DNA of 33,566 nt, taken from Sunxiuqinia dokdonensis. Lineage in GTDB: Bacteria > Bacteroidota > Bacteroidia > Bacteroidales > Prolixibacteraceae. Under the pieces are notes generated by a model, which had not been told where the DNA came from, made no database searches, and saw only the letters and a list, made by a program, of their open reading frames with translations. The position numbers and the translations under genes are program-made. Positions 4,770 through 28,526 of the stretch are shown here, piece by piece. Positions within the stretch are counted from its first letter, which is position 1. Each line of letters starts with the position of its first letter. The stretch lies in NCBI RefSeq assembly GCF_001270965.1, contig NZ_LGIA01000175.1:1-33566 (forward strand). Reading direction: 5' to 3'.

Positions 4770-5990
4770 TTAAGCGTGTAGTGCATTAATTAACTTCATC
4801 CGGTTGGCCGAGAAAATAGGGTAGAGGGCAATAACCAGCGTAATGAGGAACACCGTGAGTGCCTGGTGCCAAAACACCGATGGCTCCGTTGAAAAGAACA
4901 TGTAAGGTTCAAAGCCATAATCTTCCATCACCAATGCGGCCTGACCAGTGAGTGGAATGGGGTTTTGAGCCTGGAAGCTGAGTAGCGGAATGCTGATTAG
5001 CAAGCCCGATAGCGCGCCAATCATTCCAATAAAAAGGGTTTCGTAAAAGAGAATCGTAGCCAGCTTGTATCGCTGCATGCCAATGGCGATCATCACGCCA
5101 AATTCACGCCTTCGCTCGGCAATCATCATCATGATGGTTCCTAAAATGCCAAAGCCAATTACAATGTACAGGACCGCTTTCATGATGATTCCGCCTGCCC
5201 GGTCGCTTTCAATTTGTTGTACCATTTCGGGCGACATTTCCTGCCAGCTCATGATCGAATAGGGGGAATTCAGCGTCTCGCGCAGTTTGCGTAAGCTTTT
5301 TTCCAATTCGTTGTTATCTTTTATATTGACAACCAGTGAGGTCAGCCGGTTGTTGGCCGAGAAGAATTCCTGGCAATTTTTCAGTTCCATATATACAATC
5401 ATTTTGTTCAGCTCGGGCGATGCATGTTTGATGATACCGCGAACGGGATATTTCCCGGCTGCACTTATGCCATGGTAGCCTTGGCTGATCATGACCAGTG
5501 TGTCGTTGATTCCGAGCCGGAGATAATCGGCCAGGCCCTCGCCAATCAATAGGCCTTGGTCGTTATCGCTGAGGTAGCTTCCCTGGCGCACATTGTTTTT
5601 TAGGCTGGTGAGCCGGTTTTCCGGCTCCGGAACCGTGCCGACAACCATTACTCCTTTTGTTAATTCTTCGGATGAAGCCAGGGCAAAGGACTCGAGCCGG
5701 GGAATGACAAAATCGACTTCTTCGTTTGCCAGAATCAACTGGTTCAGATCCTGTGACTCTTCAAAGGTGTCGTTGATGCTTTTGCTTTCCCAGTAATTTT
5801 CGTGGTGAACTTGCATCGCCCCCGAGTAGTATTTCACCACCATGTCCACCATTTTTTCATACGAGCCTTCCTGCATCGAAGTCATGTACGCCGAAAGTAG
5901 TACGCCAAAAAAGATGGAAGCCACGGTAATCAGTGTTCGCCGCTTGTTCCGCCAAAGATTCCGCCAGGCTATTTTAAGATTTGTACGCAT
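4770..5990 (-). CDS. ABC transporter permease, FtsX/LolC-E type (first)
   Basis: 406 residues with the same architecture as its neighbour: MRTNLKIAWRNLWRNKRRTL followed by a first membrane segment (about 20-42), a periplasmic region (about 45-270), and three membrane segments near 272-296, 316-340 and 368-395. The motif AERRREFGVMIAIGMQRYKL (about 293-312) corresponds to the LolC/E E-G-x-A-x-G-M segment. It diverges from the second permease in the periplasmic part, which suggests an asymmetric LolCE-like pair. The gap to the LolA-like gene upstream is 97 nt and contains an imperfect stem-loop. True LolCDE delivers lipoproteins to LolA; whether this copy moves lipoproteins or another lipid is not decided by the sequence. 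Confidence 0.9.
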   Translation of the reverse strand: MRTNLKIAWRNLWRNKRRTLITVASIFFGVLLSAYMTSMQEGSYEKMVDMVVKYYSGAMQVHHENYWESKSINDTFEESQDLNQLILANEEVDFVIPRLESFALASSEELTKGVMVVGTVPEPENRLTSLKNNVRQGSYLSDNDQGLLIGEGLADYLRLGINDTLVMISQGYHGISAAGKYPVRGIIKHASPELNKMIVYMELKNCQEFFSANNRLTSLVVNIKDNNELEKSLRKLRETLNSPYSIMSWQEMSPEMVQQIESDRAGGIIMKAVLYIVIGFGILGTIMMMIAERRREFGVMIAIGMQRYKLATILFYETLFIGMIGALSGLLISIPLLSFQAQNPIPLTGQAALVMEDYGFEPYMFFSTEPSVFWHQALTVFLITLVIALYPIFSANRMKLINALHA

Positions 5991-6019
5991 AGGTTATGGA
6001 TTGATGGATTTGATCCTGG

Positions 6020-6082
6020 ATATTTGATTCCGGATACTGGATAGGACGAAAATTCAAGCATCCAGTGTCCAGATTCAAGTAT
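6020..6082. repeat. Imperfect inverted repeat between the LolA-like and permease genes
   Basis: Arms of 23 nt at 6020-6042 and 6060-6082 match as inverted repeats at 19 of 23 positions and enclose a 17-nt loop. The transcript of the operon could fold here into a long hairpin, which might attenuate or stabilise the mRNA between the carrier gene and the permease genes. No T-run follows, so it is not a standard terminator. Confidence 0.55.
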
Positions 6083-6087
6083 CGTAA

Positions 6088-6837
6088 CTATTTCACCCTT
6101 TTCATATTTTGTATCGAAAAAAACGATTCTTCCAACGGGACTTCGAAATCCATCTTGTCAAAGGTCATGATGGTTTTGTGCCCTTCTTTTTCTGCCGGAA
6201 TCATTTCCATACGTGTGGGAATCACCCGATCGTCCATTTGTTTGATATCGGTCAAAATCTCCGTATTCACCAGGAAATCATCTTCATCGTAAAATTCGGC
6301 TTTCAGCCACAGCAGCTCGTCTTTGCTGATCCACATAAAAATCTTTCCCCAAACCACAGCGGCTTCTTCGTTCGGAACCAGTTCAATTTTGTAGCAATCG
6401 TATCCTTCCAGCTTTTCCTCACCAAGCAGCCGATGTTCGTAGTCTTTCACCAGCGACGATTCCTGCACCAGGTCGTCGTTGGTAAAGTCCGAGCCCATCC
6501 ACGACTGCATCATCATCGATGGCGGGATCTTGATCATCCGGTTGATGCTCGGTACCCAGTTCCACATTTCGTTTCTGCGCTTCAAAAAAACCTGTCCTTT
6601 CTCTTTGGCGGGCGCGGTGATCAGAATCAGCGAATATTCGGTTCCGAGGGTCCAGTTTTTCATGGAAATGGTGCGTTCCCATGATGGGCGTTGAATGGTC
6701 ATGGTAAACTCACCAATACTGGAACTGCCACGGAACTTTTCATCGGCCCGGCGCACCAGGTCTTTGATATCGACGGTTTGCGCGGGAAGTGCTCCGGCAA
6801 CAAAAAGAAAGAGTATCACAAATAGGTGGGTTTTCAT
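6088..6837 (-). CDS. LolA-like periplasmic carrier (outer-membrane lipoprotein-sorting family)
   Basis: 249 residues with a signal peptide (MKTHLFVILFLFVAGALPAQ). The mature protein matches the group annotated as outer-membrane lipoprotein-sorting proteins with a LolA-like half-barrel: ADEKFRGSSSIGEFTMTIQRPSWERT (about 31-56), LILITAPAKEKGQVFLKRRNEMWNWVP (about 70-96), and the strongly conserved SMMMQSWMGSDFTNDDLVQES segment (about 107-127). LolA-fold proteins shield a lipid in a hydrophobic cavity and carry it across the periplasm. This longer branch is distinct from housekeeping LolA and is often found next to RND or ABC exporters. It begins 13 nt after the TetR stop and precedes the permease pair, so the operon holds a complete inner-membrane exporter plus carrier. 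Cargo unknown. Confidence 0.85.
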   Translation of the reverse strand: MKTHLFVILFLFVAGALPAQTVDIKDLVRRADEKFRGSSSIGEFTMTIQRPSWERTISMKNWTLGTEYSLILITAPAKEKGQVFLKRRNEMWNWVPSINRMIKIPPSMMMQSWMGSDFTNDDLVQESSLVKDYEHRLLGEEKLEGYDCYKIELVPNEEAAVVWGKIFMWISKDELLWLKAEFYDEDDFLVNTEILTDIKQMDDRVIPTRMEMIPAEKEGHKTIMTFDKMDFEVPLEESFFSIQNMKRVK

Positions 6838-6850
6838 GATGTTGTAGTTT

Positions 6851-7444
6851 TTATTCGTGTTTACTGATCAGTTTAAAACAGGCTTCAATGGTATCTTTCT
6901 CCAGATTTTCAATCGGGAAAAAATCAGGAGCTGTGAGTAGGATTAAGTTTGCTCCCTTGAGCAAACTCGAGATGGCGAATAAGTCTTTATCGGGCGAAAC
7001 ACTGCCTTGCGAAGCAATAAAGCCGCGGATCATTCTCATGACGTCCTTGCCCTTGTCTTCATATTTGGCAGTGTAAGTTTCCAAAATGTGCGGTTGTAAA
7101 ACCAAAGCCGAGTAGAGTTTCCAAAATGCTTTGTTTTTCAGGGTTGAATGAATGCTGGTCTTGATAAACCGAATAAATTCCTTTTCGCTCATGAGACCGT
7201 CCTTATTCATGTCCATGTCTGCATAAATGTTGCTGAACGCCCAATCAAAAATATTTTCGAGAATGTCGTCTTTGCTTTCAAAGTAGTTATAAATCAGTCC
7301 TTTTGATATTCTTGCTTTTTTCGAAATCTGGCTAATGGAGGTGGCATGAAAGCCATGCTCGGCAAACAGCTCAAGGGCTGTCTGCCGAATGTGTGCTTTC
7401 TTCTGCTGTCTGATTTGTTCCAGTTGTTCCGTGCTTCGAGGCAT
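6851..7444 (-). CDS. TetR/AcrR-family transcriptional regulator
   Basis: 197 residues. The N-terminal helix-turn-helix (about residues 14-60: RQTALELFAEHGFHATSISQISKKARISKGLIYNYFESKDDIL) is a textbook TetR DNA-binding domain. The C-terminal all-helical part should bind the inducer and is not conserved enough to name a ligand. It is the first gene of the envelope transport operon. A promoter and an 18-bp near-perfect palindrome lie 16-33 bp before its start codon, so autorepression of the whole operon is likely. TetR regulators ahead of exporters usually sense a transported or membrane-active compound; that is inference here. Confidence 0.92.
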   Translation of the reverse strand: MPRSTEQLEQIRQQKKAHIRQTALELFAEHGFHATSISQISKKARISKGLIYNYFESKDDILENIFDWAFSNIYADMDMNKDGLMSEKEFIRFIKTSIHSTLKNKAFWKLYSALVLQPHILETYTAKYEDKGKDVMRMIRGFIASQGSVSPDKDLFAISSLLKGANLILLTAPDFFPIENLEKDTIEACFKLISKHE

Positions 7445-7459
7445 GACTTATTTTATTTA

Positions 7460-7508
7460 TGACTGAACGTTCGGTCAAAGTTAAAATGAATTTTAGTTTT
7501 TGAAACAA
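7460..7508 (-). promoter_or_regulatory. TetR operon promoter with overlapping operator
   Basis: TGACTGAACGTTCGGTCA (7460-7477) is an 18-bp palindrome with one mismatched pair, a typical TetR-family operator. On the minus strand TAACTTTG (7476-7483) matches the Bacteroidota -7 element and overlaps the operator edge. TTG at 7506-7508 is 22 nt further upstream, slightly longer than usual spacing. Bound repressor would cover the start site. Confidence 0.7.
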
Positions 7509-7534
7509 CTTGATTGTTAAGTGAATGTTAAGAA

Positions 7535-7548
7535 TGACCGATTGGTCA
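7535..7548. promoter_or_regulatory. Second candidate TetR operator
   Basis: TGACCGATTGGTCA is a 14-bp inverted repeat with perfect TGACC/GGTCA arms. The half-site TGACC also occurs in the operator at 7460-7477 as TGACCGAACG on the minus strand. The two sites are 58 bp apart start to start of the shared half-sites, so two dimers could act together. It may also serve the divergent gene. Confidence 0.55.
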
Positions 7549-7607
7549 GTTTTCGAATCTCTTCCCGTTAGTAATATACCAACTGGATAACTGCAAGATT
7601 CCCCAAT

Positions 7608-7698
7608 GTCATCAAGAAGTCATTCGATTGTCATTAGGTGGTCATTAATTGATTGACACAACCAATGACTATAAAAACCAGGAATGACAATCATTGAC
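7608..7698. repeat. Array of 11-bp phased GTCATT boxes with inverted copies
   Basis: Four direct 11-bp units begin with GTCATC or GTCATT at 7608, 7619, 7630 and 7641 with no gaps. Two inverted copies (AATGAC) follow at 7664-7669 and 7683-7688, and TCATTGAC at 7691-7698. The first six bases are conserved and the last five vary, as expected for protein binding sites on one face of the helix. This sits in the 414-bp region between the divergent TetR and oxidoreductase genes, which holds no gene. Confidence 0.6.
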
Positions 7699-7858
7699 AG
7701 CTGCTACAGATAAATAGGCACGTAAGCGGATCAACAAGAAAGAAAGAAATATTTTCGCGCGGAAAAATCAAAATGGAAAGTGTGCAATCGAATTCACATT
7801 TTCACTATTTCAATTATCTTTACAGGAACTACGAAAAAAATTAACTAAACGCAATAAG

Positions 7859-9178
7859 ATGAACGATACCCGAAGAACTTTTATCAAACAATCAGCAGTT
7901 GTTACTGCCGGAATCGCTGCACTCCCAACCATTATGAATGCGGGCTGTGCCTCGCCCAACGAGAAGATTACCGTCGCCCTGATTGGCTGTCGTGGCATGG
8001 GATTTAATAACCTGCAATCATTTCTGAAAAACAAGGAAGTGGAATGTGTGGCGCTGTGCGATGTGGACCAGCGTGTGCTCGATAAACGGGCTGAAGATGT
8101 TGAAAAACTGACCGGTACGCGTCCGATTTTATATAAGGATTTCCGACAGGTGATTGACAACAAGGATATTGATGCCGTGATTGTGGGCACGCCGGATCAT
8201 TGGCACTGTTTGCCCATGGTTTATGCTTCGGAAGTGGGTAAGCATGTGTATGTTGAAAAACCAATTGGAACGACCATTGAAGAATGCAATGTGATGGTGG
8301 CCGCTCAAAAACGCTACGGAAACGTGGTGCAGGTTGGACAGTGGCAACGCAGCCACTCGCACTGGAACGATGCCGTTAACTATTTGCATGAAGGCAACAT
8401 TGGCCGGATTCGTTCCGTTCGTTCGTGGTCAAATGTGGGCTGGAAATCATCCATTCCGGTTGTTCCCGACAGTGAGGCGCCCGAAGGCGTGGATTATGAC
8501 ATGTGGTTGGGGCCAGCTCCCAAACGGCCATTTAACAAGAACCGTTTTCATGCTTCGTTTCGCTGGTACTGGGATTATGCCGGCGGTGTTATGACTGATT
8601 GGGGTGTCCATCTGTTGGACTTTGCCTTGTTCGGAATGAACCAGTACGTGCCCAAATCCATTATGGCGGTTGGTGGCAAATACGCGTTTCCAGAGGATGC
8701 CATGCAAACGCCCGACACGATGACGACTGTTTATGATTTTGGTGACTTTGGCTTGGTGTGGGATCATACCATTGGCGCTTATGGGGCCAATTATGGCGGG
8801 CGCGGACATGGTGTGGCCTTTGTTGGCGAGTACGGAACCTTGGTGGTTGACCGCAGTGGCTGGGAGGTGATCCCGGAGACCAAAAGCACCGGCAAGAAAG
8901 ATGGCTATGAAGGTGTTGGCTTACAGTCGGCACAAGGTGACGGGCTGGATTTACATGTGAAAAACTTTTTGGATTGCATTCGTACGGGGAATAAACCCAA
9001 TTGCGATATTGAAATTGGTGCACACATTGCGCGTTTTGCACATCTCGGAAATATCTCTTACCGGTTGGGCCGAAAAGTAAACTGGAACCCGGACAAGCAG
9101 GAGTTTGAAAACGATGATGAAGCCAACCAACTGGTCAAGGCAAATTATCGTTCGCCATGGACTTTGCCTAAGGTTTAG
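7859..9178 (+). CDS. Gfo/Idh/MocA-family oxidoreductase, Tat-exported and probably lipid-anchored
   Basis: 439 residues. The N-terminus carries a twin-arginine signal (R5-R6 in TRRTFIKQ), a hydrophobic stretch, and a lipobox-like NAGC with Cys30. The dinucleotide-binding Rossmann fold follows (VALIGCRGMGFNN, about 35-47), then the family's EKPIGTT motif (about 132-138) and the C-terminal alpha/beta substrate domain with the DWGVHLLDFALFGMNQ segment. Relatives use NAD(P) bound before Tat export to oxidise or cleave sugars and glycosides in the periplasm of Bacteroidota. Substrate is not indicated by neighbours: it stands alone. TATCTTTA (7815-7822) is a possible -7 box. A strong terminator follows 12 nt after the stop. 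Confidence 0.9.
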   Translation: MNDTRRTFIKQSAVVTAGIAALPTIMNAGCASPNEKITVALIGCRGMGFNNLQSFLKNKEVECVALCDVDQRVLDKRAEDVEKLTGTRPILYKDFRQVIDNKDIDAVIVGTPDHWHCLPMVYASEVGKHVYVEKPIGTTIEECNVMVAAQKRYGNVVQVGQWQRSHSHWNDAVNYLHEGNIGRIRSVRSWSNVGWKSSIPVVPDSEAPEGVDYDMWLGPAPKRPFNKNRFHASFRWYWDYAGGVMTDWGVHLLDFALFGMNQYVPKSIMAVGGKYAFPEDAMQTPDTMTTVYDFGDFGLVWDHTIGAYGANYGGRGHGVAFVGEYGTLVVDRSGWEVIPETKSTGKKDGYEGVGLQSAQGDGLDLHVKNFLDCIRTGNKPNCDIEIGAHIARFAHLGNISYRLGRKVNWNPDKQEFENDDEANQLVKANYRSPWTLPKV

Positions 9179-9190
9179 AATTTTCAATCC

Positions 9191-9232
9191 AAAAAAAGGC
9201 CAGCTTCATATTGCAGAAGCTGGCCTTTTTTT
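9191..9232. terminator. Bidirectional Rho-independent terminator
   Basis: A perfect 17-bp inverted repeat (9191-9207 and 9216-9232) encloses an 8-nt loop. The GC core GGCCAGCTTC/GAAGCTGGCC is flanked by a run of seven A on the left and seven T on the right, so it works in both directions. It separates the oxidoreductase gene from the convergent disrupted heme-barrel gene. Confidence 0.95.
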
Positions 9233-9799
9233 GATGTCTGTTTTAAGCGTTAGAATGCCGAAATGAATCCAAAATTCAGTTTGCTGATGGTATGGTTCGA
9301 ATCCGTAAAGTCCAGCGTATATTCTGCGGCCAATCGGATATTGGTCCGCAGCATGTAGCCCGCATGAATGGTCGCTGACTGGTAGTTGGCCAATTCAAAG
9401 TCCGATTCCACCCAATTGTATAAGGCCAAAAAGTACCAATCGCTTTGTTCTCCTTTGGGGCTGAAAATGAGTTCGGCCATAGCCGCATCGGTTTTCACAT
9501 CTTCCATCAGCGTGGTGCTGGTCATGTTCGGATAAACCTGCGAATCTTTGCGGTGAAGATATTGCGCATTGAGCTGCCATTTATCCGACGGCGCAAAGCT
9601 GAGGTCGGGCCCCCCGATGAAAACTTTATTGGTCATGTCATCCGCAATATTGTGTATAAGGTTTTCCTTCCCGGTATAGCCAAAAGCGCCAAGCCGGAAA
9701 GTTTCTCCTAAATCTTGCGAAACCCGCCCTAGGAGATTCTTGTACTTGTCATCGTCAAATACCCGCTGTGAGGCTTCACCAATTCCGTTTCCATTTATT

Positions 9800-20346: not shown

Positions 20347-20562
20347 TTATTTTTGTTTATAAGGGGTTGCTGTTGCAGGAATTTCCCGTCCTTCTTCTGC
20401 GAGGTTGAACCGTTCGCAGTTTTTCCAACCTTTGTATCCGCGGTTGCAGAAAACATTTTTGATCAGGAAAGATGAAACCTTTTCGATCTTCAGCTCTTCC
20501 TGATATACCGGACAATCTTTGGCATAAGGACATAGTTTTCCCAAATGTCGTTGACTAATCAT
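20347..20562 (-). CDS. Small four-cysteine protein of the abl operon, unknown function
   Basis: 71 residues with four cysteines: C11 and C17 (CPYAKDC), C39 (VFCNRGYKG) and C49 (NCERF). The spacing C-x5-C-x21-C-x9-C could bind Zn or an Fe-S cluster. No signal peptide or membrane segment, so it is cytosolic. It starts on the last base of the ablB stop (TAATG) and is followed 2 nt later by the winged-helix gene. Family not recognised; the cysteine arrangement and rigid operon position argue that it is a real gene. Confidence 0.75.
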   Translation of the reverse strand: MISQRHLGKLCPYAKDCPVYQEELKIEKVSSFLIKNVFCNRGYKGWKNCERFNLAEEGREIPATATPYKQK

Positions 20563-21392
20563 TATTCAATGGTTTTATAATACACGTTCATGCTTTCAAT
20601 CTGGCCGGAAATGTTGGTGTTGTTTTTCAACAAACCCGAGAAGTGGTACCCGTGATTGATAAACGTTTTATTCATTCCCGGCGAATTTAACCGGGCAATG
20701 GTGTATAAGGTTTTATACTCTTTTTCTTTCAGTTTTTCTTCCATCAGCTTGAGTAGGAAGTAGGCCAGCTTGTGCCCGCGGTAGTCAGGCAATACGGCGA
20801 AGTCGGTCATTTCCGCGTTTTTGTTTTCCGCATCCACTTCGGCCGATGAAACACCGATCAATTGGTCCTGGTCCCAAACCCCGAAATAAATGACCGAGCC
20901 ATCCTGCATGGTTTTATTGATGTATTCGGGATTGGTAACCGGAAACGGATAGGTGGCAAACACTTTTCCGAATATTTTCGACATTTCTGCGGCGTGTTCC
21001 GGTTTCGCCAGGCCTAAGTCGAAACGATCGTCGAGTGCAACGCCATTATTGTTGGGGGCTTCATTCAACAAATTGGCCAGGGTGTTGAGCGCCTCGTTTG
21101 GGCTGGCGTTTCGTTCGTCGCTTAAAAATTTCGACATGAAAAACACATCGTCCTCACCTTTGTAAAAGGCCGGAATAAAAGCTTCCTGCGTAAATCCATC
21201 CTGCAAAAACACGGGTTGGGCAGCAGCCGGAATTTTGGCGATGATTTTTGTATAGCCGTTTTTCCGGGCCAGCTCGTTCAACTTTTGGGTTATGTTTGCG
21301 CGGTCATTCGGATCGTATTTCAGCAGGAAAATGCGGTTGTTGAATTTTCCGTGATGTACCAGCGAATGACCAATTTTCTCTATCAAATCCAT
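20562..21392 (-). CDS. ablB: Beta-lysine N6-acetyltransferase
   Basis: 276 residues. AblB transfers an acetyl group from acetyl-CoA to beta-lysine to make N-epsilon-acetyl-beta-lysine, a compatible solute. The C-terminal half is a GNAT fold: LGLAKPEHAAEMSKIFGKVFATYPFP (about 126-151), IYFGVWDQDQLIGVSSAEV (about 166-184), and the acetyl-CoA loop DYRGHKLAYFLLKLM (about 202-216). The N-terminal half (IEKIGHSLVHHGKFNNRIFLLKYD) is typical of AblB. The frame opens at 21422, inside ablA, but ATG 21392 follows an AGGAA Shine-Dalgarno sequence, one base after the ablA stop, and gives the family start (MDLIEKIG), so it was preferred. The partner ablA directly precedes it. Confidence 0.92.
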   Translation of the reverse strand: MDLIEKIGHSLVHHGKFNNRIFLLKYDPNDRANITQKLNELARKNGYTKIIAKIPAAAQPVFLQDGFTQEAFIPAFYKGEDDVFFMSKFLSDERNASPNEALNTLANLLNEAPNNNGVALDDRFDLGLAKPEHAAEMSKIFGKVFATYPFPVTNPEYINKTMQDGSVIYFGVWDQDQLIGVSSAEVDAENKNAEMTDFAVLPDYRGHKLAYFLLKLMEEKLKEKEYKTLYTIARLNSPGMNKTFINHGYHFSGLLKNNTNISGQIESMNVYYKTIE

Positions 21393-21393
21393 T

Positions 21394-22704
21394 TTATTCC
21401 TCTCTTCGGTTATAGCGTTCATTATTCTCCGGAATTAAAGAAATGGAATCATTCGAGTCGGCCAGAAGCCGTTCAATTCCGAGCGCTTCAATTTCTTCGC
21501 TTCCTTCCAGCTTTAAGTCCAAGGTGCAATTTTCGCAATCCCGGTCGCAAAAAATATTTTCGTAGTGATTGGGTTCCTTGTAGGTTGTGATGACGCCTTC
21601 GTAGTTGCGCAGCACCACTTTGTGTGTTGACCACGAAATGATGTAGTTAGGCATGACGGGTATTTTTCCGCCTCCACCCGGAGCATCAATGACGTAGGTT
21701 GGGCGCGCAAAACCACTGGTATGACCAATCAGGCTTTCCATTATTTCGATGCCCTTGCCAATGGGCGTGCGGAAATGCGAAAGTCCTTCTGATAAATCGC
21801 ACTGGTACAAGTAGTAGGGCCGCACGCGGTTTTGTACGAGTTTGTGCACCAGGTTTTTTATGATCCGCGGACAATCATTGACATTGGCCAGCAGCACACT
21901 TTGGTTGCCCAGCGGGAAGCCTCCGTCGGCCAATTTCGTAAGGGCCTCCTTGGCTGAAGTGGTGATTTCACGGGGATGGTTAAAGTGTGTATTGATCCAA
22001 AGTGGTTGGTATTTTTTCAGAATTTTGACCAGATCGTCGGTAATTCGGTAGGGTAAAACAACCGGCATTCTTGTTCCTATGCGAACAACTTCGACATGAG
22101 GAATGGCGGTTAGTTGGGCCAGCAGCCAGTCTATTTTGCTGTCGGGCAGCATGAACGGGTCGCCACCGGAAAGCAATACGTCGCGCACTTGCGGCGTACG
22201 TTTAATGTAGTCAATACCTTTTTGAAGCTGTTCTTTGGAAGGAACAAAATCGATGTCGCCAACTTTTCTTTTGCGGGTGCAATGGCGGCAATACATGGCG
22301 CAGACGTTACTGACATGAAACAGAACCCGGTCGGGATAGCGGTGGGTGATGCCTTCTTCGGGGCTGTCGCTGTCTTCCGAAAGCGGATCCGCCAAGTCCG
22401 TGTCCAAAACATTCAGTTCCTGGATATTGGCAAATGACTGTTTAAAAACCGGGTCATGCTCGTAATTTTCTTTCGAGATTAACGAAGCATAATAGGGGGT
22501 AATGGAAAGTGGAAATTTTTCGGTGGTCTTCCTTAGTTTTTCCTTTTCCGATGTACTGAAACTAATTCCAGTCAGCGTTTCAAATTGTTCCACGGTGCTG
22601 ATCGAGTTTTTCAGCTGCCACTTCCAATCGTTCCAGTTCGACAGGGTCGATGTTTTGTTGATTTTGGTCGCGATCGCTTGTTGTGCGCCATTAAAAATTC
22701 CCAT
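21394..22704 (-). CDS. ablA: Lysine 2,3-aminomutase
   Basis: 436 residues. A radical-SAM, PLP-dependent enzyme that converts L-lysine to L-beta-lysine in the cytosol. The cluster motif CAMYCRHC places the three iron ligands at C135, C139 and C142. The PLP lysine is in [10 protein letters not shown] (K347). C278 (NDCPR) and the C-terminal CDRDCENC cysteines (about 384-391) resemble the Zn-binding set of known lysine aminomutases. Length and the early W-x-W motif are standard. It heads a five-gene operon with a strong promoter at 22731-22762 and is followed one base later by ablB, so the product is most likely acetylated for osmoprotection and not fermented. Confidence 0.95.
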
Positions 22705-22920: not shown

Positions 22921-23415
22921 TTAGCGATCAGTTGCTTTCATTTCTTCAATGGGGTCATCGCTGGTGAGCATGGGCGAAGCTTCCAACTGGCCAATATCAA
23001 GCAGGTTCACCAGCGTTTGCAGGCTCTCCTGAATCTGATGCAGTTTTACGTTTGGCAATGCTTGCAGCTTTTCGGTCAGCCGGTCGTGTAAAAGCGGTGG
23101 AATGCGGTTCAGCAGTTCAGATCCTTTTGATGTCAGGGCAATGTTCACGACACGTTTGTCGCCCTGTTTGGGGAGTCGGGCCAGGAAGCCCTTGATTTCA
23201 AGCCGATCGATAATTCCACTTGTCGTGCTGGAGTTCAGGTTCAGGAAGCGGCGAATTTCGCCTTGGGTAGACTGATAGTTCTTTGACGCATGCAAATAGC
23301 TCAAACACAGAATTTGCGGAATGCTCACGCCGTATTCTTTTTGTATCTTTTTGGATTCCAGGTTGATGGACCGGACAATTTTCCGGATGGTAATTAGTAT
23401 TTCAGTCGTATCCAT
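22921..23415 (-). CDS. MarR-family transcriptional regulator
   Basis: 164 residues with the MarR winged-helix: IPQILCLSYLHASKNYQSTQGEIRRFLNLNSSTTSGIIDRLEIKGFLARLPKQGDKRVVNIALTSKGSELL (about 33-103), including the DxR-type wing (GDKRVVNIALT) that contacts DNA. The frame is open for 87 more codons upstream but that part runs over the promoter and the carbonic anhydrase end; ATG 23415 (MDTTEILITIRKIV) fits the family and lies 20 bp after a strong promoter. It is 216 nt upstream of ablA on the same strand and may control it; this is inference from position. The 216-bp gap holds the abl promoter and no gene. Confidence 0.9.
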   Translation of the reverse strand: MDTTEILITIRKIVRSINLESKKIQKEYGVSIPQILCLSYLHASKNYQSTQGEIRRFLNLNSSTTSGIIDRLEIKGFLARLPKQGDKRVVNIALTSKGSELLNRIPPLLHDRLTEKLQALPNVKLHQIQESLQTLVNLLDIGQLEASPMLTSDDPIEEMKATDR

Positions 23416-23548: not shown

Positions 23549-24169
23549 TCAGAAAAAGGAAACGATTCCGGTTTCAACATCATAAATGCCACCCACGATG
23601 ATGATTTTACCGTCTTTTTCCAAATCGGAAAGAATCGGGCTTTGCTGGCGTATTTGGTTGATGGTGAGCTGCACATTGATTTCGCTGACTCGATTTACGA
23701 AGGTCAGGTTTTGGCCATTTCTTTCCGAGCTCATTGTCGTTTCGCTTTCAATAGCCGGTTTAATTTTTTGCAGGAGCCCGGTGATGTGTCCCAGTTTAAC
23801 CTGATCGCAAGCACTGATTACTGCGCCACACCGGGTGTGTCCCAGCACGACAATGATTTTCGAATTGGCCACTCCGCAGGCATATTCCATGCTTCCCAAA
23901 ATGTCATCGTTCAGTACGTTGCCGGCAATACGAATGCTGAAAATATCGCCAAGGCCCTGGTCGAAAATCAATTCAGCCGAGGTTCTTGAGTCAATACAAC
24001 TTAAAATGGTGGCAAAGGGAAACTGGCCTTCTGAGGTTTGATTGACTTGCATGAGCAGGTTCCGGTTCACTTTAAGGTTTTTCAAAAACCTGACGTTGCC
24101 TTCTTTTAAAAACTCCAGCGCTTGCTGTGGCGTAATTTTATCCTGCGTTTCTTTGGTATGTGCCCACAT
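23549..24169 (-). CDS. Beta-class carbonic anhydrase
   Basis: 206 residues. It interconverts CO2 and bicarbonate. Zn ligands and catalytic pair are visible: C58 with D60 and R62 in SCIDSR, then H111 and C114 in GHTRCGA. The GLGDIFSIRIAGN segment (72-84) and the VGGIYDVETGIVSF end are typical of the beta class. No signal peptide, so cytosolic. Its start overlaps the Sua5 stop by one base (TAATG), making it the last gene of the DUF4914-PurE-Sua5 operon. In that setting it can balance CO2 for the class II PurE and bicarbonate for Sua5. MarR downstream has its own promoter. Confidence 0.95.
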   Translation of the reverse strand: MWAHTKETQDKITPQQALEFLKEGNVRFLKNLKVNRNLLMQVNQTSEGQFPFATILSCIDSRTSAELIFDQGLGDIFSIRIAGNVLNDDILGSMEYACGVANSKIIVVLGHTRCGAVISACDQVKLGHITGLLQKIKPAIESETTMSSERNGQNLTFVNRVSEINVQLTINQIRQQSPILSDLEKDGKIIIVGGIYDVETGIVSFF

Positions 24170-25128
24170 TATGTTCTCTCTTGATATTTGTATACTGCTT
24201 TTTTTATCCTGTCCATGATGGCGATGCCCAAACCTGATTCAACAACAGGTTCAATAAATATTTGTTTAACCATTGCATCGTCTTCCATCCTATGAAGTGC
24301 TGAAAATAAATTGGCCGCGATTTCCAGCTGGTTGTATGTTTTTGAAGTATAGACCAGTTTGTCACAATTCGTGTGAAGTTCTTTTTGTCCGTGCAAAATG
24401 AGGCCGGACGAATCAGGAAGCCGCACGTTTGTCCGATCGTAAATGTACAAGGGTTTGTTTGGCGAATAGTGGCTTTTTAGCAAGCCGGGAGCCACCAGTT
24501 TTTCTGGCTTTTTGTCGTTGAATACAAACACGCCGGGCAGCGCTTTTTCAATATCATTCAGGCTGATTTTTCCCGGGCGAAGCAAGGTGCAAACGTTTCC
24601 TTCAACGGACACGATGGTGGATTCAATACCTACGGTGGTTGTTCCGCCATCCAGAATGTAATCCACGTCAGGTAGCTGTTTTCTGACATGCTCTGCAGTT
24701 ACCGGGCTCAGCTGCCCAAATTTGTTCGCGCTAGGTGCCGCAATCGGACATTTTGCCATCCGGATCAGGTTCAGTGCCAGCTCGTGGTCAGGCATGCGAA
24801 TACCGACAGTTGGTAATCCGGATGTGACAATGTCGGGGACCAGTTTGCTTTTTGGCAGAACCAGGGTTAGTGGTCCGGGCCAAAACTTTTCGGCCAATTG
24901 CATCACCGCGTCCGAGGGCTCGTCAGTCAGCGCTTTCAGGTCGTCAAGCGAGGCAATATGCACAATGAGCGGATCGAATGACGGCCGCTCTTTCAATTGA
25001 AAAATTTTAGCAACAGCTACGGAATTAAGCGTGTTGGCGCCTAATCCGTAAACTGTTTCTGTTGGAAATGAAACGAGACCGCCCGCGTTGATGATTCGGG
25101 CAGCTTCTTTCAATTGTTGGATATTCAT
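24169..25128 (-). CDS. L-threonylcarbamoyladenylate synthase, Sua5 type
   Basis: 319 residues: the YrdC/TsaC domain (about 1-200) plus a C-terminal Sua5 domain. It makes threonylcarbamoyl-AMP from threonine, bicarbonate and ATP, the first step of the t6A37 tRNA modification. Diagnostic segments are GGLVSFPTETVYGLGANT (about 16-33), KERPSFDPLIVHI (about 46-58), WPGPLTLVL (about 83-91), VGIRMPDH and CPIAAPSANKFGQLSPV (about 126-142), and GIESTIV. The linker APGLLKSHYSPNKPL marks the Sua5 form as opposed to short TsaC. It starts 35 nt after purE and overlaps the carbonic anhydrase start by one base. Bicarbonate is a substrate, which ties it to its neighbours. Confidence 0.94.
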   Translation of the reverse strand: MNIQQLKEAARIINAGGLVSFPTETVYGLGANTLNSVAVAKIFQLKERPSFDPLIVHIASLDDLKALTDEPSDAVMQLAEKFWPGPLTLVLPKSKLVPDIVTSGLPTVGIRMPDHELALNLIRMAKCPIAAPSANKFGQLSPVTAEHVRKQLPDVDYILDGGTTTVGIESTIVSVEGNVCTLLRPGKISLNDIEKALPGVFVFNDKKPEKLVAPGLLKSHYSPNKPLYIYDRTNVRLPDSSGLILHGQKELHTNCDKLVYTSKTYNQLEIAANLFSALHRMEDDAMVKQIFIEPVVESGLGIAIMDRIKKAVYKYQERT

Positions 25129-25163
25129 TTCTGTTGGTATTCTTTGTCCTCTAAACAGGCCTT

Positions 25164-25634
25164 TTACCCTTGCAGAGCCTGATCTGCTTCTTCGAGTGCA
25201 ACCCGTTTTTTGTTTTGATATTCAGAAATTTTTGACTGAATCTCAGGGTTGGATAGGCCCAAGATTTTTGCTGCGGCCAGCGCTGCATTTTCGGGGCTTA
25301 GCACGGTTAAGGGGGCCACTCCCGACGGCATGCGCACGCTTGAATACAAGTCGCCTCCTCCAAATTTGTCGCTGTAAGGCGGACAGGCAATGACCGGGCA
25401 GTGCGTTTGCGCATCGGTAAATCCGCTAAGTGCATTGCTCATTCCTGCAATGGTGATGAACACCACATTTTCCTTTTCGTATGCTTTGATTAACTCGTAG
25501 CATTTCAACGGCACTTTGTGTGCTGATGCAATTCTGGAAACGTTGCTGATTTCAAAACCATCAAGCACTTTGCTGATTTGGTTGGCCCAATCGAGGTCGG
25601 CTTTTGAGCCCATAATAATTACTACTTTACTCAT
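25164..25634 (-). CDS. purE: Class II PurE: phosphoribosylaminoimidazole carboxylase (CO2-using type)
   Basis: 156 residues of the PurE fold. Key segments are GSKADL (9-14), SAHKVP (37-42, with the likely catalytic His39), AGMSNALSG (63-71), CPVIACPP (79-86) and SSVRMPSGVAPLTVLSPENAALAAAKILGLSN (98-129). Bacterial class I PurE normally has SAHRTP and AG-x-AAHLPG; this protein instead has the class II pattern seen in metazoan PAICS (SAHK, AGRSN, CPVIxCPP, LRLPSG...TVLSPEGSA). Class II enzymes carboxylate AIR directly with CO2 and need no PurK or N5-CAIR. It overlaps the DUF4914 gene by 8 bp. No other purine gene is adjacent. A housekeeping class I PurE may exist elsewhere; that cannot be seen here. 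Confidence 0.85.
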   Translation of the reverse strand: MSKVVIIMGSKADLDWANQISKVLDGFEISNVSRIASAHKVPLKCYELIKAYEKENVVFITIAGMSNALSGFTDAQTHCPVIACPPYSDKFGGGDLYSSVRMPSGVAPLTVLSPENAALAAAKILGLSNPEIQSKISEYQNKKRVALEEADQALQG

Positions 25635-27549
25635 TGTCGTTCGTTATTAAGAATGAATATTGGTAATCCATAGGAATAATGGACAGGTATTCGTCAACAC
25701 CCGCTCCGGACAAACAGGCATCAATGATTTGTTTTCCGGTTTCAGACAGCTCGGGTGTCTGGTATTTTTTCAACTCTGTTCTGAAAAAATCATACAGCAT
25801 CTCAGCTCCTGCATCGTAGCCTTTCGTTTCTACTTCGGCTTGCTGATGCACCTGAAGAAAGCGAGCCGGTATTTTGGCGCCTTCAATGGTCAGGTAATTC
25901 AGCTCAAAACCGAGGAGCGGGCAGCGTGCATTTTGGTATTGGTCGCTGCGGAGTTTGGCATTTCCTCTGCGGGTCAAGTATTCGCGCATCAGTAACTGTG
26001 GCTTGAAGCCCACCTTCCAGGCACCGATATGTTGGTTGGGCACCAGCGTATAACGCATGCGGGGAGTCTGAAGAATCTGCTCCAGCAAAAGATTGGCGTG
26101 TGTCACCATTTTTCCGGTGGCAAAAGGCCAATAAGAACCAACGCCTTCGCTTCCCATTCCTCCGCCGTCAACAATGCTGGGATTGGCGTGTCCGCGCGGC
26201 GAAACGAGTCGCCACAGCCATGCCAAAGCCGGTGGCAAAATGTGAAATAGTCCGATGATTCCGTAGGTCGGGTCTTCTTTTGTGCAAGGAGGAGTCCGAA
26301 CCCCAAAACTCCGGATATCAACTGTAACCGGCTTATTCACCACATTGGGCACAATGGCTCTTGGCACAACCACCCGAGGGTTTGGGCATTTCTTGCCGGG
26401 TGCGTCTTCGGTATGGTCCCAGACCAAAGCGGTGCAATCGGGTTTCGATTTTATATTCAGGAATAAAAGCGGATCTTTTGGCTTGATTGTCAGTTTCTCA
26501 AGAAATGGATCATCTCCGTAATCGTTAATGCTGTCGACCCGGATAAACCACGCATTTTCAGCATCGAGAACCGTTAACTTGCCATTGTTTTTTTGAATGG
26601 ACGGCGGACACAGAGCCATGTCATCAGTTACCGGGTTGAACGAACAGAAAATCGGAAAGTTGATCAGTCGTTTTTCACCCGTTTTAATGTTTTCGCCAAT
26701 TTGAACTTGTCCGTTGGGTTCACGCACAATGTTTTGGAGCATCTCACTTTTGCCACCACCACTGGCGCCTTCGTGCATGAATGTGGTGACATTGTCGTAG
26801 GGGCTAACCACTTGAACGGTTGAGCAGTGAGCCGTGATCCAGCCTTCTTTTTCTCCTTTGGTCAACAAGGCTCCATAAAGTCCCTTTTTTGCGCTTGGAC
26901 CCGGGTAAAGGTTGTAGGAAAAAATCTCGTGCAAATCGTCTGAGCGCTTGTGCACAACCACTTGCTTTCCATTGAAATGGGTGTGTCGGAAGGTTGGCGC
27001 TACGTAGATCGCAGAGTCAATGGAAAATCCTTCGGGCAATTCGTTGACCGGAATAATTTGCTGGAGCATGGCCAGCCCCATGGCAAAAAAACCGGCATTG
27101 GCAGGAGCTACGGCAATACCTCCCGAACCAATCTGGTCGCGGCCTGCGAAGTAGAAAAACACCGCTAAATCCTGCTCCTGAAGCCAGTTGATAGTTTCTT
27201 GTCTTAGCGAGTCGAAATCGTAACCAAACTTATCAGAAAAACGCTCTTTGTCGCTTGGCAGATCATCGGCAATGGCCATGGTGTCGGGATCTCTTCGTCG
27301 CATGTAGGCTTCGGTGTAATTTGCTGAAATTCCGTTGCTCACTTTGTGAACGACTGCTTCGGAAACTTCACCTTTGCCGGGAATATTGTATTTAACCTCA
27401 AAACTTTTCTGGTCGCCATCAACTGCTGCTGTTGCCAACTGTTTAACTGTGTCGAAGGTGTTATAGGACTTACAGTTTTTTAGAATCATCTGTACATCCG
27501 ATGGAAGGGTGATTTTTTTGTTGTCAAGGATGTTTAATAAATCGCACAT
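25627..27549 (-). CDS. DUF4914-family protein with HprK/PEPCK-like kinase motifs
   Basis: 640 residues, recognised as the DUF4914 family of unknown function. Two motifs suggest the P-loop fold shared by HPr kinase and PEP carboxykinase: HEGASGGGKSEM (P-loop at about 261-268, very like the HprK G-x-SG-x-GKSE) and PVTDDMAL (D309-D310, like the HprK/PEPCK second-kinase DD). Before them are HTHFNGKQVVVHKRSDD and a glycine-rich GSGGIAV; after them SFGVRTPPCTKEDPTYG and HANPSIVDGGGMGSEGVGSYWPF. No signal peptide. ATG 27576 would add nine residues; ATG 27549 (MCDLLNILDN) was preferred from the family-like start. It begins the operon with class II PurE and overlaps it by 8 bp. Reaction unknown; kinase or carboxykinase chemistry is inference. 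Confidence 0.85.
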   Translation of the reverse strand: MCDLLNILDNKKITLPSDVQMILKNCKSYNTFDTVKQLATAAVDGDQKSFEVKYNIPGKGEVSEAVVHKVSNGISANYTEAYMRRRDPDTMAIADDLPSDKERFSDKFGYDFDSLRQETINWLQEQDLAVFFYFAGRDQIGSGGIAVAPANAGFFAMGLAMLQQIIPVNELPEGFSIDSAIYVAPTFRHTHFNGKQVVVHKRSDDLHEIFSYNLYPGPSAKKGLYGALLTKGEKEGWITAHCSTVQVVSPYDNVTTFMHEGASGGGKSEMLQNIVREPNGQVQIGENIKTGEKRLINFPIFCSFNPVTDDMALCPPSIQKNNGKLTVLDAENAWFIRVDSINDYGDDPFLEKLTIKPKDPLLFLNIKSKPDCTALVWDHTEDAPGKKCPNPRVVVPRAIVPNVVNKPVTVDIRSFGVRTPPCTKEDPTYGIIGLFHILPPALAWLWRLVSPRGHANPSIVDGGGMGSEGVGSYWPFATGKMVTHANLLLEQILQTPRMRYTLVPNQHIGAWKVGFKPQLLMREYLTRRGNAKLRSDQYQNARCPLLGFELNYLTIEGAKIPARFLQVHQQAEVETKGYDAGAEMLYDFFRTELKKYQTPELSETGKQIIDACLSGAGVDEYLSIIPMDYQYSFLITNDNE

Positions 27550-27861
27550 AAATTTCACTTTTAAATGAATTGTCAATGAATTTTGGTTTTTCTTTATCCA
27601 ATTACTCCTGAACGCGGAGGCCAGAACCTAGCACAGCATCATTCCATGTATATTTTCGAAAACATGGAGCCTTTGCTCTGGTATTTACTTGCAAAATAGA
27701 TTGCGAACTCTCCAAGCTAATGATTCGGCGAAAGCGATTTCTTTATTGTTGGGCGACTGTGAGGCAAAAAAAAACGATGTTTTCCCACCGATTTGTTTTT
27801 GCAACTTGATTTCTGTTTCGGGTGTGTCGGTTTATCTTTCCCCATCTCATTATTTCGACGG
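27550..27861 (-). promoter_or_regulatory. Long, possibly structured 5' leader of the DUF4914 operon
   Basis: About 305 nt separate the promoter from the DUF4914 start, with no gene. The minus-strand transcript can form a stem CCAGAGC/GTTCTGG (27675-27681 with 27621-27627, one G-U) enclosing a hairpin CCATGT/ACATGG (27662-27667 with 27644-27649), then a hairpin CTCC/GGAG (27605-27619). It does not match the ZTP (pfl), fluoride or SAM riboswitch signatures that I looked for. A cis-acting RNA is possible and unproven. Confidence 0.35.
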
Positions 27862-27903
27862 CAAAGATATAAAAACTACTTAAAAAATAAAGTGGTACTT
27901 AAT
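27862..27903 (-). promoter_or_regulatory. DUF4914 operon promoter and candidate XRE operator
   Basis: TATCTTTG (27862-27869, minus strand) is an exact -7 match. Upstream, 27882-27903 reads ATTAAGTACCACTT followed by YATTTTTT-like TATTTTTT, covering the -33 region. Its core AAGTACCACTT resembles the palindrome in the XRE promoter, and 19 of 22 bases agree in the opposite orientation. Confidence 0.6.
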
Positions 27904-27917
27904 TTCCAGAAATAGAC

Positions 27918-28469
27918 TTAGAAGTTGGGCGGGGATTGGATCCACAGCAGTTCGCTAATGCCGCTGTGGCTGTTAATGGCGTCGTGCGGGGTTTTGGCAT
28001 TGAAGTAGATGTTGTCGCCGGGTTTTAGCACATAGCTTTTTCCGTCCAGGTCGAATCGGACTTCGCCTGAGAGTAAATGGCAAAAAACCTGGCCATAAGA
28101 GTTGGTGAAAAAGCCTTCAATGCCCGATGTTCGGGCAAAGCGCACCAAGTAGGTATCCATTTGTTTATTGGCATCGTGATGCGACAACAGGTAGATCATG
28201 GTGCCGGATTGGTTTTGGTCGATGTATTTGATGTCTTTGCGGCTGACTACCGGATTGTTAACAAGCGATTCGTTTTCGCCGATAAGTTCTCCAACCGTTG
28301 TGTGCAGGTTTTCAGCAATCGATTTGAGGGTTAAAATGGAAGGAAACGATTTGGATTTTTCGATTTGGGAAAGGGCACTAGAGCTAACTCCTACTTTTCC
28401 AGCGAGTTCGTTCAAATGAAGATTCAAAAGTTCCCTTTTCTTTCTAATTCGTTCTCCAATGCGATTCAT
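27918..28469 (-). CDS. XRE-family regulator with C-terminal cupin domain
   Basis: 183 residues. The N-terminal helix-turn-helix (residues 5-60: GERIRKKRELLNLHLNELAGKVGVSSSALSQIEKSKSFPSILTLKSIAENL) is of the Cro/CI type. The C-terminal cupin (about 105-180: GQVFCHLLSGEVRFDLDGKSYVLKPGDNIYFNAKTPHDAINSHSGISELLWI) should bind a small ligand or metal. Such proteins often control the operon beside them. The DUF4914 promoter lies directly downstream of its stop, and a 22-bp motif is shared between the two promoters, so it probably regulates both itself and the DUF4914-purE operon. Ligand unknown. Confidence 0.92.
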   Translation of the reverse strand: MNRIGERIRKKRELLNLHLNELAGKVGVSSSALSQIEKSKSFPSILTLKSIAENLHTTVGELIGENESLVNNPVVSRKDIKYIDQNQSGTMIYLLSHHDANKQMDTYLVRFARTSGIEGFFTNSYGQVFCHLLSGEVRFDLDGKSYVLKPGDNIYFNAKTPHDAINSHSGISELLWIQSPPNF

Positions 28470-28489: not shown

Positions 28490-28526
28490 CAAAGTTATAA
28501 AATTATTAAGTATTACTTCATTTTTT
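28490..28526 (-). promoter_or_regulatory. XRE-cupin promoter with palindromic operator
   Basis: TAACTTTG (28490-28497, minus strand) matches TAnnTTTG, 20 bp before the start codon. AAGTATTACTT (28508-28518) is a perfect palindrome around a central base, inside the longer motif 28505-28526 shared with 27882-27903. No clear -33 TTG was found, as expected if an activator or repressor site replaces it. Confidence 0.6.

Follow-up and report, generated by a model that had tools for sequence, protein, structure and literature searches.

A row of four genes on the minus strand of a 33,566-nucleotide stretch of Sunxiuqinia dokdonensis DNA (referred to here as the window) encodes a DUF4914 protein, PurE, Sua5 and a carbonic anhydrase. 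An XRE-cupin regulator gene lies upstream of DUF4914 on the same strand, with topB beyond the regulator. The host genome amounts to 4.96 Mb in 225 contigs. By predicted fold and catalytic residues, DUF4914 is a homologue of phosphoenolpyruvate carboxykinase (PEPCK). The row may accordingly be viewed, at even odds, as a locally regulated operon for carbon-dioxide chemistry headed by this PEPCK-like protein. The features of the locus are listed below (aa, amino acids; nt, nucleotides; AIR, aminoimidazole ribonucleotide).

25627..27549, minus strand: DUF4914 (PF16260), 640 aa, PEPCK-like; Pfam 970.9 bits, far over the cut-off
25164..25634, minus strand: class II-like PurE, probable AIR carboxylase, 156 aa; Pfam AIRC 143.7 bits
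24169..25128, minus strand: Sua5 (threonylcarbamoyl-AMP synthase), 319 aa; Sua5_yciO_yrdC 190 bits and Sua5_C 72 bits
23549..24169, minus strand: beta-carbonic anhydrase, PRK15219 type, 206 aa; Pro_CA 134.9 bits, NF011765 268.8 bits against a cut-off of 221
27918..28469, minus strand: XRE-cupin transcription regulator, 183 aa; Pfam HTH_3 and Cupin_2
27880..27900, minus strand: operator-like site AAGTACCACTTTATTTTTTAA, then a -7-like box TATCTTTG, ~330 nt upstream of the DUF4914 start
28498..28518, minus strand: operator-like site AAGTAATACTTAATAATTTTA, then a -7-like box TAACTTTG, upstream of the XRE-cupin gene

DUF4914 and PurE overlap by 8 bp, PurE and Sua5 are separated by 35 nt, and Sua5 and the carbonic anhydrase overlap by 1 bp. 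Coordinates, Pfam and NCBIfam all agree with the four co-oriented genes described in an earlier, sequence-only reading of this DNA. That inventory was correct for the four genes; it overlooked the regulator, the two operator-like sites and the oxaloacetate-node neighbours found at other loci. The DUF4914 start is an ATG, with an alternative TTG possible at 27576.

Fold and conserved residues of DUF4914

The structure of DUF4914 predicted with AlphaFold2 from 33 aligned sequences has a pLDDT of 87 and a pTM of 0.87, with the P-loop (263-273) and the C-terminus of low quality. A Foldseek search of the PDB with this model gave 118 matches at E<=0.001, the best being a PEPCK at E 5.4e-22. The 50 of the 118 matches that were listed are all PEPCKs, of the ATP and GTP types alike. 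TM scores against PEPCKs range from 0.60 to 0.75 by target length and from 0.58 to 0.63 by query, and the PEPCK fold spans the full length of the predicted model. In profile-profile comparison with hhalign, whose E-values are pairwise, DUF4914 aligned with six ATP-PEPCKs at E 9.9e-6 (probability 82%, 472 columns), and with larger sets at E 5.4e-6 (86%, 406 columns). The two known PEPCK types compared with each other gave E 0.077. The case for a PEPCK is thus made by the fold search and the profile-profile comparison, not by sequence searches of the PDB, in which no match was significant (phmmer, Thermus thermophilus PEPCK at E 0.53; no PEPCK in the profile search). Among Pfam models at E<=0.001, neither PF01293 nor PF00821 matched DUF4914, only PF16260. 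The DUF4914 model itself weakly matches six frames of 537-561 aa (E 7e-5 to 5.4e-4, below cut-off), two of which, L012 and L013, align with PckA.

The ATP-PEPCK alignment pairs YPGPSAKKG of DUF4914 with WYGGEMKKG, HCS with HCS, GASGGGKSEM with GLSGTGKTTL and NPRV with NTRV. The metal-site DD is unaligned in this comparison, and the GTP-PEPCK alignment pairs TDDMA of DUF4914 with GDDIA. The residues that in Escherichia coli PckA bind metal (Lys, His and Asp), belong to the P-loop (Lys and Ser/Thr) or bind substrate (Arg) all have aligned counterparts in DUF4914. R86, K221, K222, S263, G264, G266, K267, S268, D309, D310 and R392 are invariant in 118/118 homologues, and H241 is kept in 117. Given the PEPCK fold and the conserved catalytic residues, DUF4914 most likely works like a PEPCK, though by model score it lies outside both described families; the PEPCK/HprK fold mentioned for it in the sequence-only reading is borne out as a PEPCK fold. 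It may constitute a third PEPCK branch.

Compared with ATP-dependent PEPCK (PckA, PF01293), DUF4914 shares the whole fold and the aligned metal, P-loop and substrate residues. It differs in being ~100 residues longer, in its 14-17% identity in the structural alignment, in a phenylalanine at a conserved-arginine position and in going unmatched by PF01293. GTP-dependent PEPCK (PF00821) is likewise similar in fold and in the aligned GDDIA, and differs in a weak profile similarity and in the failure of its Pfam model to match. The pyrophosphate (PPi)-dependent PEPCK, set beside DUF4914 by description only, shares the idea of a PEPCK with a non-nucleotide donor. According to the accessible part of the source, the PPi-dependent enzyme is mostly present beside ATP/GTP PEPCK and is evolutionarily separate, and PEPCK uses CO2 rather than bicarbonate (PMC8100219). 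The same part describes PEPCK running in the CO2-fixing direction in capnophilic succinate producers, as proposed here for DUF4914; the enzymes concerned are ATP/GTP PEPCKs, and linkage to PurE, Sua5 or carbonic anhydrase is not stated there (PMC8100219).

DUF4914 is present in 39 of the 393 genomes of an even sample of the order (~1/10). Counting the window's genome in each case, it is over the cut-off in 8/296 genomes of a phylum sample and present in 15/61 relatives. Thermotoga maritima, used as a control genome, has DUF4914 and neither PF01293 nor PF00821. The family, whose function was so far unassigned, gains a structural identity and a testable role. If DUF4914 is a PEPCK, an enzyme has been missed at a central metabolic junction, and metabolic models would need revision for organisms that carry DUF4914 but lack a known PEPCK, as the control searches indicate for T. 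maritima. A literature search on DUF4914 and PF16260 found no paper; subscription journals were thinly covered, hence this is no proof of novelty.

PurE, Sua5 and carbonic anhydrase

The best PDB match of the window PurE is the class II enzyme of Treponema denticola (3rg8), and the protein carries the class II motifs SAHK and AGMSNALSG, where class I copies have SAHR and AHLPG. The earlier assignment to class II agrees with both. All ten class II PurE neighbours of DUF4914 share SAHK and AG(M/R)SNALSG. Against the NCBIfam purE model TIGR01162, whose title names the class I reaction, the window PurE scores 146.1 bits, below the cut-off of 149.6. Its other best PDB match among class II enzymes is the AIRC domain of human PAICS. 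The active-site S, H, K and SN residues named for PAICS (PMC9376930) are present in the window PurE, with M65 in place of Arg331; of the 11 class II sequences aligned, two have R at this position. It differs from these enzymes in sitting in a DUF4914 row, not in a purine operon or a PurC fusion.

In the order sample, matches to the window PurE at E<=1e-25 occur at 12 places in 11 genomes. Five of the places lie directly 3' of DUF4914 (the window, G497, G706, G461 and G565); in G461 this PurE is the only one besides a LarB-like match, and in G565 it is split in two frames. In six DUF4914-free genomes of four genera the match is the sole AIRC match (G355, G638 and G561 of one genus, G409, G578 and G625), and these copies are 73-85% identical to the window PurE. 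In G305 the copy survives only as a fragment containing stops. Close copies are the only PurE in six genomes, which indicates indirectly that the window PurE is probably a true AIR carboxylase. The sequence-only reading had also raised a new pathway around DUF4914 using AIR and its carboxylated product CAIR; with close copies serving as sole PurEs, such a pathway is needless, and a role of the window PurE in it was set aside. As a separate observation, two AIRC matches (166 and 30 bits) lie in one 354-aa frame at G307:C7:142090-143037, possibly a tandem PurE.

The window Sua5 is over the cut-off of TIGR00057 and has a Sua5_C domain. Sua5 consumes bicarbonate and threonine. The translation of the carbonic anhydrase holds CIDSR and HTRC, matching Cys-Asp-Arg / His-x-x-Cys, the zinc motif of beta-carbonic anhydrases. 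Elsewhere in the genome there are a second TIGR00057 protein (Sua5/TsaC) on contig C72, a class I PurE on C6 (212.6 bits) and a PckA on C165. A third AIRC match on C208 (64.6 bits) is probably LarB, by score and length. The window carbonic anhydrase is the genome's only over-cut-off Pro_CA match.

Neighbourhoods of DUF4914

Partners were counted within 4 kb of DUF4914 in two samples. The first, biased to close relatives, comprises the best 80 loci of at least 576 confirmed relatives; among those that lack a particular partner, 15 to 25 are short-flanked. It holds XRE-cupin at 38 loci, Sua5 at 19, PurE at 12 (10 of class II), carbonic anhydrase at 8 (one a 123-aa frame, L023) and a major facilitator superfamily (MFS) protein at 4. 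The second, the 39 loci of the order sample, gives 13, 9, 8 (5 of class II), 3 and 3, respectively, and 6 to 11 of its loci lacking the partner in question are short-flanked. Unsupervised clustering of the neighbours in the first sample returned the same three commonest families with the same counts (XRE-cupin 38, Sua5 19, PurE 12), and carbonic anhydrase at 7/80 loci, a count that four further clusters reach as well; each of the 7 copies lies no more than 1.5 kb away. The clustering shows that the association of DUF4914 with these partners is more than chance; it holds for a part of the DUF4914 family. A scan of 70 other neighbour proteins gave at most two matches to any one Pfam family (among the 25 of 112 families listed).

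Beyond the window, the full DUF4914-PurE-Sua5-carbonic anhydrase row was found only at L066, L071 and L191 among the loci examined. The adjacency of DUF4914 and purE is not limited to this genome; the sequence-only reading had named such a limitation as a refutation of its proposal. The partners recur, but most loci hold only some of them or none, and most DUF4914 loci are without PurE, Sua5 and carbonic anhydrase.

A FastTree tree of 118 DUF4914 loci requires at minimum 13 changes for PurE (20 present, 72 absent, 26 unknown), 15 for Sua5 (27, 65, 26), 7 for carbonic anhydrase (9, 78, 31) and 19 for XRE-cupin (50, 48, 20), gains and losses being indistinguishable in these counts. The 90 loci scored for both PurE and Sua5 divide into 16 with both, 2 with PurE alone, 9 with Sua5 alone and 63 with neither. 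Changes in the two agree in 5.8 of 9 independent pairs on average, with none opposite (median p 0.031, range 0.016-0.125).

Several gene arrangements were seen, in which a number of gene names rest on clustering with a Pfam-tested member.

XRE-(HAD)-DUF4914-PurE-II-Sua5-carbonic anhydrase: the window, without HAD; L071 and L191, with HAD
XRE-HAD-DUF4914-PurE-II-MFS-Sua5-aconitase-unassigned-citrate synthase: L076
biotin carrier-OadA/PYC-like-malate dehydrogenase-DUF4914-PurE-II-Sua5-carbonic anhydrase: L066
aminotransferase-(citrate synthase)-malate dehydrogenase-DUF4914-PurK-class I PurE-MFS-Sua5: L020; also L155, where XRE precedes the row and PurK is split between two frames
MFS-class I PurE-Sua5-DUF4914, with divergent PurC and XRE: L171; L170 is similar, its PurC partial

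The PurK of L020 was identified by Pfam. The aminotransferase of L020 and L155 is of class I/II (NF006388), its substrate not assigned, and the neighbouring MFS protein resembles lactate and oxalate-formate carriers. L180 and L021, apparently one contig region in two collections, have a row like that of L171 with no PurC match. Other loci have DUF4914 with carbonic anhydrase or Sua5 alone. L205, which is without DUF4914, keeps XRE-PurE-II-Sua5-carbonic anhydrase; its anhydrase is PRK10437-like (215.6 bits, below the cut-off of 251), whereas that of the window is of the PRK15219 type. Parts of the row are exchanged for functional equivalents, PurK with class I PurE replacing class II PurE, and the order of the genes varies. 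A literature search combining carbonic anhydrase, purE and Sua5 found no paper.

DUF4914 occurs in other settings too. At L055 (~5486-9569) and L072 a GntP permease (by Pfam for L055) and further genes lie behind it in the same orientation. Six loci from sediment metagenome-assembled genomes (L083-L086, L088 and L089) show another conserved setting, with a prolyl oligopeptidase-like gene directly downstream. RidA-like and D-serine-dehydratase/alanine-racemase-like proteins also turn up in the neighbour scan, without assignment to particular loci.

The XRE-cupin regulator and operator-like sites

The regulator resembles PuuR (NF007408, 52 bits, far under the cut-off of 211). Most of the 23 loci listed have in common AAGTANNACTT, behind which come an A/T-rich TTAA stretch and TAnnTTTG, a -7-like box matching that of Bacteroidota. 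By eye, this site lies before the XRE-cupin gene and again before the first gene after the regulator. The window holds exactly two such site-plus-box pairs, one at 28518 and one at 27900, both on the minus strand. Over 118 loci there are 62 pairs, against 12.7 in mononucleotide shuffles. The site, with at most one mismatch, is found at 31/50 loci with XRE-cupin nearby and at 2/68 without, many of the 31 having served to derive the pattern.

A search of 12 genomes found the pattern AAGTANNACTTHATWNNTTWA exactly seven times, each time at a DUF4914 locus: twice in G000 and once each in G319, G310, G497, G461 and G706. Only the G310 site was unseen before the pattern was fixed, and the backward control was not split by mismatch, so the seven stand without a matched control. 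With at most one mismatch there is no excess in the 12 genomes (40 matches against 56 for the backward control). The simplest reading of these candidate sites is local autoregulation by XRE-cupin in one part of the DUF4914 family; the regulator is probably a repressor because of where the sites lie. A literature search on XRE-cupin and carbonic anhydrase in Bacteroidetes found no paper. Separately, the XRE-cupin/DUF4914 intergenic stretch of L061 looks by eye like a truncated relic of the HAD phosphatase gene that occupies this place in L062, L071 and L076.

Proposed function and alternatives

We infer the reaction, phosphate donor, direction, signal and co-transcription of the module as follows. 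DUF4914 would convert phosphoenolpyruvate (PEP) plus CO2 to oxaloacetate and back, or do so with closely analogous compounds; its phosphate donor or acceptor may be other than ADP/ATP. The oxaloacetate would feed malate, citrate, aspartate and threonine. PurE-II would carboxylate AIR to CAIR with CO2, and PurC adds aspartate to CAIR (PMC9376930). Sua5 would draw on bicarbonate and threonine, and the carbonic anhydrase would equilibrate CO2 and bicarbonate. XRE-cupin, probably a repressor, would switch this partly redundant set, PckA, class I PurE and another Sua5 being encoded elsewhere in the genome. The carboxykinase idea is best supported by the oxaloacetate-node neighbours (malate dehydrogenase, citrate synthase, aconitase and aminotransferase), as far as gene content can indicate. 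A coupled PEP/oxaloacetate carboxylation module fits these neighbours together with the exchange of parts at the AIR-to-CAIR step, PurC, the two kinds of carbonic anhydrase and the shared sites.

A fuller formulation is put forward tentatively, at somewhat below an even chance. In it, a third PEPCK branch, with a donor that is possibly not ATP or GTP, heads a modular, self-regulated cluster in which one XRE-cupin repressor would control PEP carboxylation, AIR carboxylation (by PurE-II or by PurK with class I PurE), threonylcarbamoylation of tRNA and the exchange of CO2 and bicarbonate. Purine synthesis, tRNA modification and anaplerosis all demand inorganic carbon, and such a module would offer a testable case of one switch governing that demand. 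The inorganic-carbon theme proposed in the sequence-only reading survives in part, through a PEPCK-like DUF4914, PurE-II, recurring exchanged partners and a regulator with sites at many loci; most loci, being partnerless, do not fit it.

A number of observations weigh against the carbon-dioxide operon. The chief doubts are that most DUF4914 genes are without the partners and that PurE and Sua5 can travel as a pair of their own. PurE, Sua5 or carbonic anhydrase lies within 4 kb at only 13/39 order-sample loci, and seven loci outside the class (L163-L169, of which L169 has a short flank) have none of the partners. PurE-II-Sua5 without DUF4914 occurs in 4 genomes, three of them of one genus (L204, L206 and L208), and the co-variation of PurE with Sua5 may mean only that these two move together. 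PurE agrees in direction with XRE-cupin without significance (median p 0.125), and the tests for carbonic anhydrase (p 1 and 0.5) are too small to decide. The version with PurK and class I PurE uses ATP and bicarbonate, not CO2 directly, and Sua5 makes few molecules, a weak tie to bulk carbon flow. Each of the links to OadA, citrate synthase, aconitase and PurC is drawn from between one and three loci. PckA is over the cut-off in 13/15 DUF4914 genomes against 34/46 relatives without DUF4914, which makes DUF4914 mostly an addition; its role as a PckA replacement was rejected, there being no anticorrelation in the 61 relatives.

On the structural side, the rmsd (root-mean-square deviation) between DUF4914 and PEPCKs is large (5.4-8.2 A), and the hhalign comparison with GTP-PEPCK gives E 0.003, a probability of 10% and 178 columns. 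F515 (F in 117/118 homologues, Y in 1/118) stands at or near the conserved PckA arginine, which is presumed to contact adenine; the local alignment there is weak. As to regulation, the XRE-bearing DUF4914 loci of G297, G309, G324 and G565 lack an operator match even when one mismatch is allowed. Between the operator-like site and DUF4914, at 27790-27775 on the minus strand, there is a terminator-like hairpin followed by nine T, which could end a short leader, serve to attenuate the operon or be there by chance.

As a special case compatible with the carbon-dioxide operon, the set may respond to carbon-dioxide shortage or excess, with XRE-cupin reading a metabolite of CO2 status and the set taking over, under that condition, from the PckA, class I PurE and Sua5 encoded elsewhere. 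Three of the four enzymes have counterparts in the rest of the genome, the window carbonic anhydrase is the sole beta-type over the cut-off, and the operator-like sites are specific to DUF4914 loci. All this suits the idea, which is doubtful in that carbonic anhydrase or PurE is missing at many loci.

Alternatively, the neighbourhood may be a composite, with PurE-II-Sua5 an old housekeeping pair and DUF4914 with XRE-cupin a separate unit, such short units shuffling among few insertion points with no shared metabolic purpose. The pair without DUF4914 in 4/6 genomes that have PurE-II as sole PurE (three of one genus), the many partnerless loci and the lack of any Pfam family above two among the other neighbours listed are all in keeping with this. 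It is nonetheless unlikely: PurE, Sua5 and DUF4914, mostly with XRE-cupin, meet in three or more gene orders and with PurE of either class; on the DUF4914 tree, changes in PurE go along with changes in Sua5; the DUF4914-free L205 keeps XRE-cupin with PurE-II, Sua5 and carbonic anhydrase; and at most of the 23 loci listed a site seen by eye precedes whatever gene comes after the regulator. In L204, L206 and L208, the pair stands behind a ~1150-aa frame of isoleucyl-tRNA-synthetase size, and 126-149 aa DksA-like and 219-249 aa LspA-like frames are also present (names from sequence letters only).

That DUF4914 is instead a PEPCK/HprK-superfamily kinase with a different substrate, such as a small acid, a phosphorylated intermediate or a protein, and possibly belongs to an AIR/CAIR route, is improbable: its P-loop GASGGGKSEM is closer to the HPr kinase motif than to that of PEPCK, F515 replaces the arginine and PckA is usually present too, but the full-length PEPCK fold, the aligned metal and oxaloacetate-site residues, the oxaloacetate-node neighbours and the ordinary look of AIR/CAIR chemistry, close PurE copies being sole PurEs, all tell against it.

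Other features of the window

The Rfam search of the window gave zero matches. Sigma-70-like promoters number 4, against 7.0 in shuffles, and terminator-like sites 13, against 8.5 (sd 3.1). Downstream of the carbonic anhydrase lies a MarR-type gene (22921 to ~23415), with a probable ATG at 23415, ~130 nt past the carbonic anhydrase gene. Behind it, at 20562-22704, are ablA and ablB, encoding lysine 2,3-aminomutase and beta-lysine acetyltransferase of a compatible-solute route.

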